From Acidimicrobiales bacterium (GTDB taxonomy: Bacteria > Actinomycetota > Acidimicrobiia > Acidimicrobiales > RAAP-2), in NCBI GenBank assembly GCA_025351385.1, contig JANXWA010000017.1:1-42683 (forward strand): a stretch of DNA of 42,683 bases, written 5' to 3'. Shown here one piece after another: positions 20,607 to 26,475 of this stretch. The notes under the pieces were generated by a model, which was not told the origin of the DNA, made no database searches, and saw only the letters and a program-made list of their open reading frames with translations. The position numbers and the translations under genes are program-made. The stretch's first letter is position 1. Every line of letters starts with the position of its first letter.

Positions 20607-21467
20607 CTAGCGGTAGCCAGAGAAGATGTCCTCGACGCAACCGGCGATGTCCATGGGATTGGTGACGCGCACGAACCACTCGGTGCGCATGGTCTCGATG
20701 AACTGCTCGCGACCCATCTTCATCCAGAACGAGTCGGCGATCTGAGACTCGTGGGCCTCGAGGGCGTCAAACTTGGCCCCGTTGACCTCGCTGATGTCAA
20801 TGACGGCGTCGATCTGATCATCGGGGGTGCCCAACTCGATCTGTTCCTCGTCGGGGTCGCGTACCTCGGGAGCGCGCACGATGCCCCTGGCGGCGTCGGC
20901 CTCGGCCTTCTCACGATCCTCCTGCTCCCAGCGCAGGCGCCAGATTGCCATGATCGAGTTGGGGATCGCGTTGAAGTACAGCGTCGGCTCGTAGTCGATC
21001 AACTCGAGGGCGGCCAGGGTGACGCGGTGGGCCTGGATGTGGTCGGGATGGCCGTAGAAGCCGTAGGCGTTGTAAGTCATGATGACCTGCGGGCGCTCCT
21101 CCATCAGTACTGCGGCGAGCTTGCCGGCAGCGACCGCGACCGACGTCGACCAGAACGACTCGGGGTCGTCGTTCTGGGGCCAGCCCTTCATCCCCGAGTC
21201 GCGGTAGCCCAGACGGACCAGCCGGCTGATACCGAGGATCTTCACGGCGTTGTCCAGCTCGACGGCACGGATCTTGGCCACCTCGTCGCCGTCGTGGTGG
21301 TCGGCGTCGGGCTTCGCACCATCGGCCGCGTCGCCGCACTCGCCGTTGGTGCAGCACACGAGCACCGTGCGCACGCCCTGGTCGGCGAGGAGCCGGTAGA
21401 GGCCCCCCGACGAGCTCGCTTCGTCGTCGGGGTGCGCGTGTACCGCCAGGAAGGTCAGTTGCTCCAT
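20607..21467 (-). CDS. PIG-L/LmbE-family deacetylase, second copy
   Basis: A zinc-dependent N-acyl deacetylase of the MshB/Mca/PIG-L superfamily, 286 residues. The metal site is made by AHPDDE near residue 12 and GHPDH near residue 145 (YGFYGHPDHIQAHR). A CTNGECGD loop and DSGMKGWPQNDDPESFW follow the family pattern. The N-terminal ATG at 21467 overlaps the TGA of the upstream paralogue (TGATG), with GGAGG ahead, so both are co-translated. In actinobacteria such enzymes act on mycothiol precursors or conjugates, but related members serve other pathways, so the substrate is left open. Confidence 0.85.
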   Translation of the reverse strand: MEQLTFLAVHAHPDDEASSSGGLYRLLADQGVRTVLVCCTNGECGDAADGAKPDADHHDGDEVAKIRAVELDNAVKILGISRLVRLGYRDSGMKGWPQNDDPESFWSTSVAVAAGKLAAVLMEERPQVIMTYNAYGFYGHPDHIQAHRVTLAALELIDYEPTLYFNAIPNSIMAIWRLRWEQEDREKAEADAARGIVRAPEVRDPDEEQIELGTPDDQIDAVIDISEVNGAKFDALEAHESQIADSFWMKMGREQFIETMRTEWFVRVTNPMDIAGCVEDIFSGYR

Positions 21468-22276
21468 CAGATACCTCCAAAGAGATCGGTCTCGTCGCCG
21501 GAGGCCGGCGACCGACTCCACGCGCGCTGGTAGTACTCAGTGCCGAACAGCAGTTCGAACAGCTCCTCGTTCATCCGCACGAGGTCGCCGTTGTCGACCT
21601 GGGAGGCGTGGGTCGCCATTGCGGCTTGCTTCCGCTTGGCGTAGGCGCGCACGTCAATGGTCGCCGCGACGAGGTCGTCGGGCACGTTCAGCCCGGCGTC
21701 GAGCACCCAGGCCGGCAGGAAGACGCCCATTGCCTTGGCGCCGTCGACGAACTCCGTGAGAACCCGCGTCGGCACGACCGGGTAGTAGAGCCGCTCGGGC
21801 GTCGCCGCGAGGTCGATCGCGCGGCGCGTGACCCGGTTGGCCATGATGTGGTCGGGGTGGCCGTAGAAGCCGGTCTCGTCGTAGGTCACCACGACCGTCG
21901 CGTGCAGCTCGTCCAAGAGGGCCGCCAGCGTCCGGGCCGTGGCGTCGACGTCGATGTTCATGAAGGCGTTGGGGTTGGCGTTCTGAGGCCAGCCCACCAT
22001 GCCCGAGTCGTCGAAGCCCAAGGTGACGACCCGGCTGAAGCCGATCATCGCCGCAGCGCGCTGCAGTTCGCCGGCCCGCACGCTCCTGGTCACCTCGACG
22101 TCGTGGTGCGGGTCTGAACCGGCACGGGCCTCGTCGTCGAGGCCCAGCTGGCCGTTGGTGCAGGTAACGAGGACGACGCGGTAGCCGAGTTCGGCGTAGC
22201 GAGTCGAGATGCCGGCGGTGAAGAGCGATTCGTCGTCGGGGTGCGCGTGGACGCAGACGAGGGTCGGGAAAGCCAT
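21467..22276 (-). CDS. PIG-L/LmbE-family deacetylase, first copy
   Basis: A 269-residue paralogue of the next gene, sharing AHPDDES, CTNGQLG, the DSGMVGWPQNANP loop and GFYGHPDHIMANR. The zinc ligands (His and Asp of HPDD, His of HPDH) are all present. A tandem pair implies either a heteromer or division of labour between two N-acylated substrates. TAGTCT lies six bases before the ATG and overlaps the stop codon of the upstream transporter gene; there is no ribosome-binding site, so this gene looks leaderless with a promoter embedded in its neighbour's end. Confidence 0.85.
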   Translation of the reverse strand: MAFPTLVCVHAHPDDESLFTAGISTRYAELGYRVVLVTCTNGQLGLDDEARAGSDPHHDVEVTRSVRAGELQRAAAMIGFSRVVTLGFDDSGMVGWPQNANPNAFMNIDVDATARTLAALLDELHATVVVTYDETGFYGHPDHIMANRVTRRAIDLAATPERLYYPVVPTRVLTEFVDGAKAMGVFLPAWVLDAGLNVPDDLVAATIDVRAYAKRKQAAMATHASQVDNGDLVRMNEELFELLFGTEYYQRAWSRSPASGDETDLFGGI

Positions 22277-22282
22277 TTAGAG

Positions 22283-22288
22283 AGACTA
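22283..22288 (-). promoter_or_regulatory. Candidate -10 element of the PIG-L pair
   Basis: TAGTCT followed by CTCTAA and the ATG at 22276. Its first bases are the TAG stop of the NRAMP-like gene. Confidence 0.55.
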
Positions 22289-23902
22289 GGAGGTCGACAG
22301 TTGGACGATGCGCACGATCAGCAATGTACCGGCGACCAGCAGGTACGAGCCGACGGCGCGCAGCAGGACCCGACGCGCGAGCGACGTCGGCAGTGGCGCG
22401 AGCAGCGTGAGGCGCGGGGTCCGCCAGTCGCGCTTATCGATGTCGTACTCGACGCGCACGGCGGCCCGGCGCAGCCCGATCGGCAGACCGACGACCAGGC
22501 CGGCGATCGCCGCGACCGCGAGGACGCTCAGTAGGGCGACGACGTTCACCGAGGTGAAGAGGGTCGAGACCATCATGGTGATCGACAGCACCACCAGTAT
22601 CGTCACGATGATCGTGGCGACGACGTTCAGCCAGCGGCCGTTGACCCACGGCCCGAGGACCTCGCGGTCGTTGCAGAGCAGCAACACGAAGATCGTCGTG
22701 CTCGGCAGCATGAGCCCGCACATCGCCTGGACGGCCAAGGTGATCAGACCCAGGGGGGCGCCGGGCAGCAGCGTGACCGTGCCGGCGACGACGAGCAAGC
22801 CGGCAAAGGCTCCGTAAAAGCCCTTCGCGTCGCGCAACCGGGCGTTCAGCGTGTGGCGAGACCCGGCGAGGTCTCCCAGCGCGTACGTGCTCGCCAGTGT
22901 GACCGCGGCGGCGCCGATGACCGACGCGTTGAGCAGGAGGATCGCGAAGACCGTTCCCGAGCCGTGGCCCACGTAGTGCCCGAGGCCCTTCGCGACGCCG
23001 AGCGCGTTGGTGTACGCGTTCGTGCCACCGTGGCCGGCGAACCCCGCGGCGCAGGCGGCCATGAGCGCCGAGGCCCCCACGACGACGATGAACGAGCCCA
23101 GGATCGTGTCGATCCGTTCGTAGTTCAGCCAGCGCGGCGTGATCTTCTTGTCGACGATGTTGGACTGCTGAAAGTAGAGCTGCCAGGGCGCAACGGTCGT
23201 GCCGATGATCGAGATGATGAGCAGCACCGCGCTCGATGACGCCCCGCCACGAATGCCGGGCACGGTCGCGTGGACCAGGGCCGTCGTGTAGTGGGGCTTC
23301 GTGGCGAGCAGCAGGGGGACGATGAAGAGGTTGACGGCGACGAAGAGCATCATGAATCGCTCCCAGCGCTGGAACGACCCCGAGGCGGTCACCGCGAACA
23401 GCACGACCACCGCGATTGGCACCGAGATGTACGGACTGACGCCGAAGTACTCCATCGAGAGCGAGATGCCGATGAACTCGGTGATGATGATGAGGAAGTT
23501 CAGCAGCAGGATCGATCCGATCGACACGTTGCCCCAGTAGCGTCCGAAGCGCTCGCGGATGAGCCGTCCGTGCCCGACGCCCGTGACCGCGCCGAGCCGC
23601 GCCACCATCTCCTGGTTGATGATCAGCACCGGGATCAACAAGGGCAGGGTCCACAGGAGCGAGTAGCCGAAGTTCTGGCCGGCCTGGGCGTAGGTGGAGA
23701 CCCCACCGGCGTCGTTGTCGCCGACCATCACGATGAGGCCCGGTCCGATGATGGCGATGAGCGTCAAGAAACGGGCCCGTAGACCGCGGCGCCGACCGAC
23801 GTCGTGGGCCTTGATGGTGCCGAAGGCCCCGCTGATCTGCTGGTCCCTCAACGGGTCCTTGACTTGACTCTTAACTTGGTCCTTACGCTGCTCGCTCTGC
23901 AC
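22286..23902 (-). CDS. NRAMP-related divalent metal transporter with altered metal site
   Basis: An eleven- or twelve-span transporter of 538 residues with the NRAMP fold: GPGLIVMVGDNDAGGVSTYA in span 1 and GTTVAPWQLYFQQSNIVDKK in span 6. The canonical DPGN of span 1 reads D64-A-G-G67, keeping the Asp but losing the Asn ligand. The canonical MPH(N) of span 6 reads A238-P-W-Q, losing the Met that gives selectivity for Mn/Fe over Mg/Ca. These changes resemble NRAMP-related Mg2+ transporters, so Mg2+ is the favoured substrate by inference. The basic, soluble N-terminal 40 residues are longer than usual. The GTG start has a full AAAGGAGGT site. The neighbouring MgtE-like regulator supports the Mg2+ idea. 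Confidence 0.88.
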   Translation of the reverse strand: MQSEQRKDQVKSQVKDPLRDQQISGAFGTIKAHDVGRRRGLRARFLTLIAIIGPGLIVMVGDNDAGGVSTYAQAGQNFGYSLLWTLPLLIPVLIINQEMVARLGAVTGVGHGRLIRERFGRYWGNVSIGSILLLNFLIIITEFIGISLSMEYFGVSPYISVPIAVVVLFAVTASGSFQRWERFMMLFVAVNLFIVPLLLATKPHYTTALVHATVPGIRGGASSSAVLLIISIIGTTVAPWQLYFQQSNIVDKKITPRWLNYERIDTILGSFIVVVGASALMAACAAGFAGHGGTNAYTNALGVAKGLGHYVGHGSGTVFAILLLNASVIGAAAVTLASTYALGDLAGSRHTLNARLRDAKGFYGAFAGLLVVAGTVTLLPGAPLGLITLAVQAMCGLMLPSTTIFVLLLCNDREVLGPWVNGRWLNVVATIIVTILVVLSITMMVSTLFTSVNVVALLSVLAVAAIAGLVVGLPIGLRRAAVRVEYDIDKRDWRTPRLTLLAPLPTSLARRVLLRAVGSYLLVAGTLLIVRIVQLSTS

Positions 23903-23964
23903 GCTCCACCTCCTTTCGTCTCGTCGTGGTCGTTGGGCGAAACAACCACGGCGACACCGGAGGT

Positions 23965-23979
23965 CGGGCTAGCAGCCCG
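23965..23979 (-). promoter_or_regulatory. Small hairpin in the leader of the NRAMP-like gene
   Basis: A six-bp stem (CGGGCT/AGCCCG, three-base loop) about 63 bases before the GTG. A TTGACA at 24007-24002 could be a -35, but no TANNNT lies at proper spacing. No known Mg2+ or Mn2+ riboswitch core was recognised. Confidence 0.3.
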
Positions 23980-24034
23980 CCATTGGAGTCGTGCGAAGTT
24001 GTGTCAATGCGTGATTCGCCGTGAGGCTGGTACT

Positions 24035-24057
24035 AGGGGGTTTCAGAGAGACCCCCT
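24035..24057. terminator. Terminator downstream of the MgtE-like gene
   Basis: A seven-bp stem (AGGGGGT/ACCCCCT) with a nine-base loop, 26 bases past the stop at 24084. It separates the MgtE_N/CBS gene from the NRAMP-like gene, so the two are likely expressed from different promoters or by partial read-through. Confidence 0.55.
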
Positions 24058-24083
24058 TTGAACGTGACCGAGGGCGCGGGGCA

Positions 24084-25343
24084 CTACTCCTCCACCCCGC
24101 TCATCCCGAACTCGCGGCGCCAGCCCTGGGGCAGGAGCTCCTCGAGCAGGTCGTCGACCGTGATGACGCCGATCATCTTGCCGTGCTCGTCATCGAGCAC
24201 GGGCAGGACCGTCAGGTTGAAGTCGCTCATCTTGCGCGACACCCGGTGGAGATCCCACTGAGGGTGCACGTGGGCCAGTTGGGTCCGCGAGACGCTGAGG
24301 GCCAGTTCGCTCGGACGGGCCCGGACCAGGGGTGCGATGGACGCGGCCCCGATCGGCTGACCGCCCTCGTCCATGACGAAGACTGCGTGGACCGACTCGG
24401 CCGGCACGCTCGAGTGGCGGATCGCCTCGAGGGCGTCGTCGACCGTCGCACTCGACGGCACCGACACATAGTCGGTGTTCATCAGCCCACCGGCGGTGTC
24501 GGCGTTGTACGAGAGGAGCTGGCGCACCTTGGCCTGCTGATCGACGGCCAGCTGCTCGAGGATCGTGAGTCGCCGATCCTGGTCGATCTCACTGATGAGG
24601 TCGGCGGCGTTGTCAGGCTCCATGCGCGATAGCAGACGTGCCGCCTCGGCGTCGGAGCGCGACTCGAGGAACTCCAGCTGGTGGGTGACGTCGAGCTCTT
24701 CGAAGACGTCGGCCTCGAGCTCGCGGTCGAGGCCCACCGCCTCGATGATCTCCTCGCCCTCCTCGTGACTGGCCTGTTCGACCAGGTCGGCGATCTGGGC
24801 GGGGTGGAGCTTCGCGAGCTTGCGGTACGGGATGCGCAGGCGGGCCGAGGGCACGTGCGACACAAAGGGCTCGATGGAGGCGAAGTCGACGATCGCCTCG
24901 GCCTTCAGCTGCTGACCGAACTTCTGACCCAGGATCCGGCGCAAGAACGGACGTCGACCAGGGTCGACGCCGACGACCTCCCAACGGCCGTCGATCTCGG
25001 CGATCTCGATTTCGTTGGCGATAATGAGCCGCCCGCGCACCAGGTTGATCAGGTGTCGCGCCAGCAGGTCCTCGGCGAGGAGCAGCTCGCCCGGACGACG
25101 CTCGAATCGACGCAGATCCACGCGGCGGCCCTGGAAGGTCATCCGGCCCTCGGCCAATCCGCCGATCTTTCGGATCGGCACGAAGAGGTTGCGGCCCTCG
25201 ATCCGGATCACCACGCCGACGATGGGCGGGTGCGCGTCGTCGCCGAGCCGCGCGACCAGGTCCTGGACGCGGCCAATCCGGTCGCCGTCGGAATCGAAGA
25301 TCGGACGGTGCAGGAACGTGGAAAGGTGGAGAATCTCAGTCAT
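24084..25343 (-). CDS. PRC-barrel + MgtE_N + tandem CBS protein lacking the MgtE membrane domain
   Basis: A soluble 419-residue protein. Residues about 1-75 and 75-170 look like two PRC-barrel units (FDSDGDRIGRVQDLV; GVVIRIEGRNLFVPIRKI). Residues 175-280 form the right-handed MgtE_N superhelix (LHPAQIADLVEQ, MEPDNAADLISEI). Then comes the MgtE signature YNADTAGGLMNTDYVSV and two CBS domains (about 285-345 and 350-410; the second reads LTVLPVLDDEHGKMIGVITVDD). In MgtE channels these parts sense cytosolic Mg2+ and close the pore, but here the five-span pore domain is absent. The gene precedes the NRAMP-like transporter on the same strand, 181 bases away, suggesting it gates or regulates that protein. 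Confidence 0.85.
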   Translation of the reverse strand: MTEILHLSTFLHRPIFDSDGDRIGRVQDLVARLGDDAHPPIVGVVIRIEGRNLFVPIRKIGGLAEGRMTFQGRRVDLRRFERRPGELLLAEDLLARHLINLVRGRLIIANEIEIAEIDGRWEVVGVDPGRRPFLRRILGQKFGQQLKAEAIVDFASIEPFVSHVPSARLRIPYRKLAKLHPAQIADLVEQASHEEGEEIIEAVGLDRELEADVFEELDVTHQLEFLESRSDAEAARLLSRMEPDNAADLISEIDQDRRLTILEQLAVDQQAKVRQLLSYNADTAGGLMNTDYVSVPSSATVDDALEAIRHSSVPAESVHAVFVMDEGGQPIGAASIAPLVRARPSELALSVSRTQLAHVHPQWDLHRVSRKMSDFNLTVLPVLDDEHGKMIGVITVDDLLEELLPQGWRREFGMSGVEE

Positions 25344-25446
25344 ACGAAGCCTTATCGGTCATCCAAGGCTACCCCCTCGACCCCACGTCCACCAACGCCG
25401 CCGATGACGTCTCAGCAAGCGACGCGTAACGCCAAGGGGTCGACGA

Positions 25447-26475
25447 TCAGTGGACGGATGGTTTGAAGCGGGCCAGCACGCCAGCGACAAAGGCGAGGTC
25501 GTCGTCGTCGATGTCGGCGTGGGTGACGAACCGGGCGCGACGTGGTCCAATGGTGTCGCCCCAGACGCCCAGGGCCCCGAGCTCGGCCACGATCTGGCGC
25601 GCTTGTGGGTGGTTGAACGCCACGATGTTCGTGCGACACGTGGTGGGGTCGTACTCGGCCTCGGGAAAAGTGTCGGCGAAGAGGACGGCCAACTGGCGAG
25701 CACGTATGTGGTCTTCGGACAGTCGGTCGATCATCGTATCGAGGGCGACGAGCCCCGCTGCGGCGAGGAAGCCTCCCTGACGCATCCCTCCGCCGAGGCG
25801 CTTGCGTTCGACGCGGGCCCGCTCCATGATGTCGGCGGGGCCCGCCAGCAGCGAGCCGACCGGCGCGCAGAGTCCCTTGGAGAGACAGCACATCACGGTC
25901 GTCGCGGGCGCGGCGAACTGCGCGGCGCTCGTGCCCGAGGCGACCACAGCGTTGAAGAGCCGCGCGCCGTCGAGGTGCATCGGCCGGCCTCCGATGGCGC
26001 CCGCCAGAGCCACCAAGTCGACGACATCGATCGGCGTGCCGCCCGACGCCATGTGCGTGTTCTCGACCGCCACCATCGCGACGTGCGGATGGTGATCTTC
26101 CTCAGCGTCGATGATGTCGAGCACCTCACGCAACGCCAGCGTCCCCGTGGAGTCGTCGACGACGGCGAACTGGACGGACGAGTTGCGCGCGGCCGCGCCC
26201 ATCTCGAAGCCCACGACGTGCGTCTCGCGCCCGGCGACGACCATGTCGCCCGGTCCCGTCAGCACCCGAATCGCGATCTGGTTGCCCATGACGCCCGTCG
26301 GAACGAAGACGGCCGCCTCCTTGCCGACGAGCCGGGCGAACCTCGTCTCCAGCTCGTTGATCGTGGGGTCCTCGCCGAAGCCGTCGTCACCGACCACCGC
26401 GGCGGCAATCGCTTCACGCATTGCCGGCGTGGGCTGGGTCACCGTGTCGCTTCGCAGATTCACTCGTCGGGTCAT
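25447..26475 (-). CDS. ltaE: Low-specificity L-threonine aldolase
   Basis: A PLP enzyme (342 residues) cleaving threonine or allo-threonine to glycine and acetaldehyde. It begins with the family's NLRSDTVTQPTPAMREAI, then GDDGFGEDPTINELE. The PLP Lys is in CCLSKGLCAPVGS, and GGGMRQGGFLAAAG follows as in characterised aldolases. VENTHMASGG and HLDGARLFNA supply cofactor contacts. TAGCCT lies six bases before the ATG, with no ribosome-binding site, so it is probably leaderless. It is divergent from the thioesterase at 26512 with only 36 bases between start codons. Confidence 0.94.
   Translation of the reverse strand: MTRRVNLRSDTVTQPTPAMREAIAAAVVGDDGFGEDPTINELETRFARLVGKEAAVFVPTGVMGNQIAIRVLTGPGDMVVAGRETHVVGFEMGAAARNSSVQFAVVDDSTGTLALREVLDIIDAEEDHHPHVAMVAVENTHMASGGTPIDVVDLVALAGAIGGRPMHLDGARLFNAVVASGTSAAQFAAPATTVMCCLSKGLCAPVGSLLAGPADIMERARVERKRLGGGMRQGGFLAAAGLVALDTMIDRLSEDHIRARQLAVLFADTFPEAEYDPTTCRTNIVAFNHPQARQIVAELGALGVWGDTIGPRRARFVTHADIDDDDLAFVAGVLARFKPSVH

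Follow-up and report, generated by a model that had tools for sequence, protein, structure and literature searches.

What ion is carried by the NRAMP-related transporter encoded in this stretch, and how are its activity and its synthesis controlled? The window, i.e. the whole 42,683-nucleotide (nt) stretch analysed, is contig JANXWA010000017.1 of an Acidimicrobiales bacterium (assembly GCA_025351385.1, 97 percent complete). The answer proposed here, which we regard as rather probable, is a Mg2+ uptake module with two layers of control: a pore-less MgtE-like sensor protein, and translation of the transporter coupled to a short leader open reading frame (ORF) between the two genes. Comparisons across genomes were made with a sample of 296 genomes of the class.

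The sequence-only reading of this DNA had placed the two genes at these positions, on one strand and in this order, and both were recovered as ORFs 25343..24084 and 23902..22286 on the minus strand. The partner gene precedes the transporter gene, with a gap of 181 bp between them:

24084..25343, minus strand, MgtE-like regulatory protein without a pore, 419 amino acids (aa), ATG start
22286..23902, minus strand, NRMT-type transporter, 538 aa, GTG start at 23902

Identity of the transporter

The transporter matched the Pfam Nramp family with 250.8 bits; three NCBIfam Nramp models also touched it, each with a score under its cut-off (100 vs 430, 50 vs 272.5 and 37 vs 50 bits). Among the sequences of solved structures the best match was EleNRMT (E 9e-63), followed by BfraNramp (4e-25). 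An AlphaFold2 model built from a 54-row alignment (predicted local distance difference test, pLDDT, 88.7; predicted template modelling score, pTM, 0.88) also had EleNRMT as its top Foldseek match in the PDB (TMt 0.86), and both by sequence and by fold the protein was nearer to NRMT than to the Mn/Fe Nramps. The expected aspartate of span 1 (D64), DAGG and APWQ are all present, as NDAGG at residue 63 and GTTVAPWQ at residue 234. The protein thereby has DxxG in helix 1 (NDAGG) and TxxA/T in helix 6 (GTTVAPW), and DxxG-TxxA is the motif defining NRMTs in the available part of PMC8806188. As D64, G66, T235, T236 and P239 were invariant in both alignments of relatives, the binding-site motif is not due to chance. 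The histidine pair of canonical Nramps in transmembrane helix 6 (TM6) is replaced by W and Q, and EleNRMT also lacks both. The likeness to EleNRMT (PDB 7qia) thus comprises the fold, the D-G-T-A site residues and the replacement of both TM6 histidine positions; the two differ in overall sequence (about 32 percent identical when aligned by structure) and in a C-terminal extension that EleNRMT does not have.

In the tree, a fully supported branch separates the window transporter from the Dra and Bfra Nramps, so that the placement apart from Mn/Fe Nramps held when checked as the sequence-only reading had advised. A clade joining the window transporter and EleNRMT without the methionine-bearing TDxGS clade was not recovered in this tree (supports 87-91, long branches). 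One clade of unpaired NRAMP relatives (L058-L064) has TD[AIV]GS and AV[IV]MPW with the methionine kept, and its host genomes also carry a long NRMT.

By sequence and model, the window transporter is of the NRMT (NRAMP-related Mg2+ transporter) type. EleNRMT is described in the part of Ramanadane et al. 2022 available (PMC8806188) as carrying Mg2+ and Mn2+, not Ca2+, without proton coupling. For the window transporter the residues, with both TM6 histidine positions changed, hint at possible Mg2+ transport without proton coupling; specificity for Mg2+ is not assured, and Mn2+ may also pass.

Its closest named relatives were Acidimicrobiaceae metagenome assemblies. The C-terminal extension (residues 451-538, window 22286-22552) forms two extra helices in the model, 454-480 and 508-537; these 88 residues past position 450 are absent from the short NRMTs compared. 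In the same alignment long-type NRMTs have 75-132 residues past this position, short NRMTs at most 6 and EleNRMT none.

The MgtE-like partner protein

In the partner, MgtE_N (residues 179-281) and two CBS domains were found above the cut-offs, and the protein aligned with the cytosolic domain of MgtE in both sequence and structure comparisons. Of the architecture read earlier from the sequence (PRC-barrel, MgtE_N and two CBS domains without a pore), MgtE_N, the two CBS domains and the lack of a pore stood; the PRC domain (PF05239) gave a weak match to the window protein, just short of the cut-off (E 0.0014, 19.0 bits vs 21.2). PRC was matched at E <= 0.1 in 42 of 51 partner homologues (best 3.8e-7), and the first 130 residues of the partner model (pLDDT 85.7, pTM 0.61) are mainly beta. 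A second structure comparison listed no PRC-barrel entry, a method by which an unlisted family is not excluded. The MgtE channel domain (PF01769) had no match in the window genome at E <= 0.001, and because the MgtE_N domain and the CBS pair are present and PF01769 is unmatched, the partner corresponds to the sensor half of MgtE and is not an MgtE. Where MgtE has its plug helix, the partner ends in a short tail with an LLPxxWRR motif.

The Mg2+-binding positions of Thermus MgtE (TtMgtE), as named in the available part of PMC5882242, were mapped onto the partners by alignment (82 long-type partner rows). The equivalents of E59, D91, D95 and D247 are D212, D244, D248 and D398 in the window partner, with Asp in 79, 80, 81 and 81 of the 82 rows, respectively, the others being gaps and one Glu; the equivalent of D250 is E or D in 74 rows. 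Compared with the MgtE cytosolic domain (2yvy), the partner thus shares MgtE_N, the CBS pair and most of the acidic Mg2+-ligand positions tested, and differs by the missing pore and plug helix, an extra N-terminal beta-rich, PRC-like part and N in place of D226. This last change, affecting a ligand of Mg5 (N376 in the window partner, N in 78/82 rows), weakens the case for a Mg2+ sensor of this transporter, as do the Mg2+ sites that require the plug helix or pore and cannot exist in the partner, and the MgtE-like proteins that stand alone in genomes without NRMT.

Such MgtE-like proteins of the same architecture (L065-L068) were seen in fetched stretches without an NRMT, from genomes without NRMT-range matches. 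No fusion of partner and transporter was noticed among the fetched loci, with no search aimed at fusions made.

Pairing of transporter and partner across genomes

Scores divided the Nramp matches of the class sample into three bins: 34 genes of a long type, resembling the window transporter, from 31 genomes; 38 genes of a short type, from 38 genomes; and 38 matches that scored lower. Among the partner matches listed, a partner was present within 5 kb of at least 59 of the 72 genes in the NRMT score range (at least 29/34 long and at least 30/38 short) and of 0/38 lower-scoring matches. The count used 65 listed partner rows and left out rows on contigs without an NRAMP match; the NRMT of one genome (G182), the single partner match of which lay outside the matches listed, was counted as unpaired. 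The short bin includes seven unpaired genes that are not NRMTs by motif, since they have TDxGS...AV[IV]MPW with the NRAMP methionine.

Of 80 named contigs, 53 carry the partner, 20 lack it and seven could not be scored. The 53 paired loci had it upstream on the same strand (42), downstream on the same strand (8) or on the opposite strand (3), and among the organisms with a paired locus are Acidimicrobiaceae, Streptomyces, Mycobacterium, Nocardia and Solirubrobacterales. Conserved adjacency, which the sequence-only reading had wanted checked, was consequently found both in the class sample and in the named loci (53/73 scorable). In a tree of 147 sequences, partner presence was explained by five changes, compared with a shuffled mean of 28.8.

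Telling against a functional link, adjacency is lost in 20 of the 73 scorable named loci, and NDAGG is kept in 13 unpaired rows of the tree, because of which the link between NRMT and partner is strong but not strict. Strict co-segregation of the partner with the Mg-type site, suggested by the class sample, was rejected in the wider set, which has 13 unpaired NDAGG and seven paired NDAGA sequences. NDAGA-F in place of NDAGG marks a subclade of long NRMTs (L053, L055-L057, L114, L121, L126, L128, L130, L135, L138, L140, L144, L148 and others), in which the partner is present in seven rows, on the same strand and downstream where the tree drawing shows it.

The pairing has been described before. 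In the part of Shin et al. 2014 available (PMC4072509), a neighbour homologous to the N-terminal domain of MgtE was reported beside most NrmT genes examined, and cytosolic feedback or a chaperone role was proposed for it, with the role left open. Ca_c0685 of C. acetobutylicum and NrmT of A. capsulatum share with the window the transporter family, the pore-less MgtE-like neighbour and the proposed cytosolic feedback; because of this report neither the pairing nor the feedback idea is new. Of the split Mg2+ system suggested from the sequence, the combination of an NRMT with a pore-less MgtE-like protein was supported, and this combination, together with the idea of feedback, was already in that paper.

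Adjacency could also be merely shared operon inheritance, with the MgtE-like protein acting elsewhere and not touching the transporter. Stand-alone MgtE-like copies and unpaired NRMTs fit such an account, and the A. capsulatum partner, when co-expressed, gave no further rescue in the available text of the 2014 study (PMC4072509), a result that also counts against control by the partner. We consider shared inheritance alone improbable, as pairing occurs in both long and short transporter clades and in four relative gene orders, and was reported for most of the NrmT genes examined in 2014 (PMC4072509). Feedback by the partner on the transporter is the reading preferred here.

Relation to the MgtE channel and CorA

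The MgtE channel domain was found in 5/59 NRMT-type genomes vs 179/237 others (Fisher 7e-22, uncorrected for kinship; 296 genomes), and CorA showed no association with the NRMT type (25/59 vs 99/237 genomes). Four of the six families tallied (f2, f4, f28 and f36) contain both NRMT-only and MgtE-channel-only genomes; f21 and f54 each hold one genome with both NRMT and MgtE channel. In the window genome CorA was not found (the control matched in 14/14 genomes), so that this 97 percent complete assembly has neither a CorA nor an MgtE channel match. The hypothesis drawn from the distribution is that in several lineages the NRMT pair replaced the MgtE channel, the sensor being retained and the pore exchanged.

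The exclusion statistic, uncorrected as it is for kinship, counsels caution here, as do the five genomes with both (G036, G052, G146, G197 and G225; two by weak matches, 1.4e-5 and 5.9e-4). Furthermore, 42/296 genomes lack all of NRMT, CorA and MgtE channel, with MgtA-type ATPases not searched, and the absence of other importers is for this reason no proof of the role of NRMT.

The same data bear on the substrate. The transporter might be mainly a Mn2+ importer whose partner answers Mn2+ or another ligand, e.g. an adenine nucleotide via CBS. The paired transporter of A. capsulatum acted as a Mn2+ transporter, fully rescuing a Mn2+ defect but needing low millimolar Mg2+ to rescue a Mg2+ defect, according to the available part of PMC4072509; EleNRMT carries both ions in that of PMC8806188, and no second Nramp was found in the window genome. 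The ligand positions D, G, T and A, the same as in EleNRMT, the lack of CorA and MgtE channel matches in the window genome and the exchange with the MgtE channel within four families speak for Mg2+, and a mainly Mn2+-importing role appears rather unlikely, if somewhat less so than shared inheritance alone. Because of the A. capsulatum results (PMC4072509, available part), it is unproven both that Mg2+ is the main substrate and that the partner exerts control.

A conserved leader ORF between the genes

The sequence-only reading had assigned a terminator to the gap, one that could set the ratio of the two products. This was not upheld: a terminator scan of 21900-25700 gave a single candidate site, within the transporter gene, and none in the gap. 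The GC hairpin of the gap lacks a T-run and overlaps a conserved leader ORF at its Shine-Dalgarno (SD) sequence, start codon and proline codons. An intrinsic terminator was therefore rejected, and in its place stand the leader ORF and a predicted SD-sequestering structure. A DNA palindrome acting as an operator was also rejected, its TTTC half not being conserved. The leader comprises:

24052..24059, minus strand, leader SD-like sequence AAAGGGGG, the G run of which can pair with two proline codons
23969..24046, minus strand, leader ORF with CTG start, 25 codons and TAG, (M)KPPSTSLTANHALTQLRTTPMAGC

The consensus of the element is AAGGGGG-N5-CUG-Lys-Pro-Pro-Ser-Thr, that is, SD-N5-CUG-AAA-CCN-CCN-AGU-ACC...stop. 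The pattern CTGAAACCCCCNAGTACC with one mismatch was found in 13 of the 296 genomes, once in each and always in the gap between NRMT and partner on the sense strand, compared with three matches for the reversed control pattern. Two of 13 same-genus genomes (G102 and G233) were missed by the pattern, and their leaders (L012 and L011) have the element with ATG for CTG. The leader pool was formed of fetched leaders of at least 60 nt, searched with at most three mismatches, and excluded shorter leaders, nearly all of the short type. The element was present in 99/173 leaders (91/162 distinct), all in or near the window genus, including 46/46 further same-genus stretches, 25/25 best family-search loci, 15/26 long-type class loci, 8/42 named contigs, 5/33 same-family stretches outside the genus and 0/1 short-type leader. 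The element thus characterises the window genus and some of its close relatives rather than NRMT pairs in general.

In the 91 distinct leaders, the start codon was CTG in 87, ATG in three and TTG in one. Codon 2 was AAA in 90 and AAG in one, codon 3 CCC in 83, CCT in seven and CCG in one, codon 4 CCT in 40, CCG in 21, CCA in 16, CCC in 13 and ACT in one, and codon 5 AGT in all 91. The G-rich SD ends 4-6 nt ahead of the start in 86/91. Leader length is 16-29 codons (24 or 25 in 62/91), and the stops are TAG (60), TAA (17) and TGA (14). As AAA makes up 1/66 Lys codons and AGT 9/161 Ser codons in eight window genes, the codons flanking Pro-Pro are both nearly invariant and rare. The SD run can pair with the proline codons at 5/5 positions in 78/91 leaders, four of them by GGAGG:CCTCC double changes and three with G-U pairs; the other 13 show one or two mismatches.

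The conserved gap element is, from its pattern of variation, best read as a leader ORF. Against this stand the unusual start codon CUG, gaps not enriched in multiples of three, and the absence of purifying selection after codon 6 (143 nonsynonymous and 65 synonymous changes in 57 close pairs); also the invariance of AAA and AGU indicates constraint at the nucleotide level beyond coding. A conserved peptide after codon 6 was rejected, period-3 gaps and codon-position bias giving it no support. An unselected rest would be expected of a leader peptide and equally of a non-coding RNA.

The element could also be a non-coding RNA or DNA site, such as a riboswitch-like hairpin or an operator, with the ORF incidental. 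The near fixation of AAA (90/91) and AGT (91/91) in spite of available synonymous codons, the unconstrained rest of the peptide and the G run to C run pairing, with its four double changes, would agree with this. Variation, on the other hand, occurs where coding permits it, in the NTG start, both proline wobble bases and among three stop codons, with an SD 4-6 nt upstream. The first in-frame stop is also tightly placed (interquartile range 18-19 codons past codon 6), whereas the other two frames scatter. In the Rfam scan of 21900-25700 on both strands (E <= 1) nothing came above threshold, there being two matches to other families under their gathering scores, and no M-box (RF00380) was found upstream. 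We hold a purely non-coding element to be unlikely and retain the leader ORF.

Predicted coupling to the transporter start

Downstream of the leader, the window has the following order: leader TAG (23971-23969), 5 nt, CCTCC, a hairpin and the transporter SD. In the predicted fold the last of these is base-paired to CCTCC:

23959..23963, minus strand, CCTCC, predicted anti-SD, 5 nt past the leader stop
23926..23949, minus strand, inner hairpin GTGGTTGTT...AACGACCAC, lying inside the predicted anti-SD:SD helix
23909..23916, minus strand, transporter SD (AAAGGAGG), ahead of the GTG start at 23902

The fold was examined in the 72/91 leaders that reach the SD in the fetched stretch. Sequestration was scored where the minimum-energy fold paired the SD with a site at most 20 nt from the leader stop and enclosed a hairpin of at least six pairs. 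It was predicted in 62/72 leaders, compared with 17.8 (standard deviation, sd, 3.4; maximum 25) over 40 shuffle rounds. Among the 60 leaders in which the start following the SD shares the reading frame of the transporter, 51 were sequestered vs 13.6 (maximum 22; 30 shuffle rounds), and once similar leaders were removed 15/20. The computed mean pairing of the SD was 0.71 vs 0.55 shuffled, and 0.21 when the 14 nt beginning at the leader stop were treated as occupied. The frame check failed in 12/72 leaders.

Detracting from the coupling, the predicted structure is missing in 10/72 leaders, and RNAalifold found no pairs in a MAFFT alignment covering 47 of the 72 segments, for which reason the per-sequence test against shuffles was used. 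In addition, the transporter match starts 237-411 nt past the leader start in 13/93, some with an intervening short frame, and a second class of SD-led leader ORF, with peptide M-x-A-D, gave a non-significant result in the anti-SD test (5/11 vs 3.65, sd 1.5, shuffled), for which the limit had been raised from 20 to 26 nt.

Leaders with an out-of-frame start behind the SD include L021, L084, L229, L233, L235 and L237, where the transporter match lies 250-410 nt on. The second kind of SD-led leader ORF (CTG or GTG start, M-x-[A/T/S]-D) occurs without the KPPST element in 12/173 leaders (L015, L017, L025, L078, L080, L087, L093, L094, L106, L239, L267 and L268). Directly downstream of the transporter gene and on the same strand, the window has two tandem genes of the PIG-L deacetylase family (20607-22276).

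Proposed mechanism and known systems

In the first layer of the two-layer module, at high free cytosolic Mg2+ the MgtE-like protein would bind Mg2+ via its retained acidic sites and inhibit the transporter, in the way that this domain shuts the pore in MgtE itself. In the second, translation of the transporter would be coupled to the leader ORF: a ribosome at the leader stop would cover the anti-SD and free the transporter SD, which would remain shut if the leader were not started or finished. The point of control may be the leader SD, held in a hairpin with the proline codons; alternatively, ribosomes may be slowed at the rare AAA and AGU codons and at Pro-Pro. The leader mini-gene probably controls the amount of importer made; that it responds to Mg2+ is a guess from the cargo of the transporter and from the mgtQ-mgtB analogue.

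In Salmonella mgtQ-mgtB, translation of an 8-aa gap ORF frees the sequestered SD of a Mg2+ transporter gene, according to the available part of PMC8092293. The window resembles it, as predicted from sequence only, in a short gap ORF with a strong SD, the SD of a putative Mg2+ transporter gene held in a stem-loop near this ORF, and a conserved Pro codon in an RNA stem. The two differ in sequence, phylum and transporter family, and the window has a CUG start and Lys-Pro-Pro-Ser-Thr instead of Asp2/Glu5 codons. The details of mgtQ need not carry over, because there loss of ribosomes at Asp and Glu codons was needed and Pro codon substitution raised output (PMC8092293, same part). Ribosomes stall at consecutive Pro codons, and loss of EF-P by deletion alters mgtA mRNA via the Pro codons of mgtL in the available part of PMC6460261; enterobacterial leaders include mgtL and mgtP (PMC8092293, part available). 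Several of the NrmT operons of 2014 have an M-box riboswitch in the portion of PMC4072509 available, whereas the window has a leader ORF between the genes and no Rfam match above threshold.

Significance

New here are the class-wide pairing counts with the exclusion of the MgtE channel, and the conserved leader ORF between the genes; among the papers listed by searches of an open-access library, none was seen to deal with a leader ORF ahead of an NRMT gene. The swap with MgtE within families, together with a genome in which neither CorA nor an MgtE channel was found, leads to the hypothesis of a kept sensor and an exchanged pore, and the leader ORF adds a second control element, made up of its start, a small set of invariant codons and its stop. 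The full combination, i.e. dual Mg2+ control by a pore-less MgtE sensor and a CUG leader, replacement of MgtE in several lineages and an origin of the leader independent of the enterobacterial ones, is put forward tentatively, as possible though on balance doubtful. The leader ORF suggests that control of Mg2+ uptake by leaders arose outside enterobacteria too.

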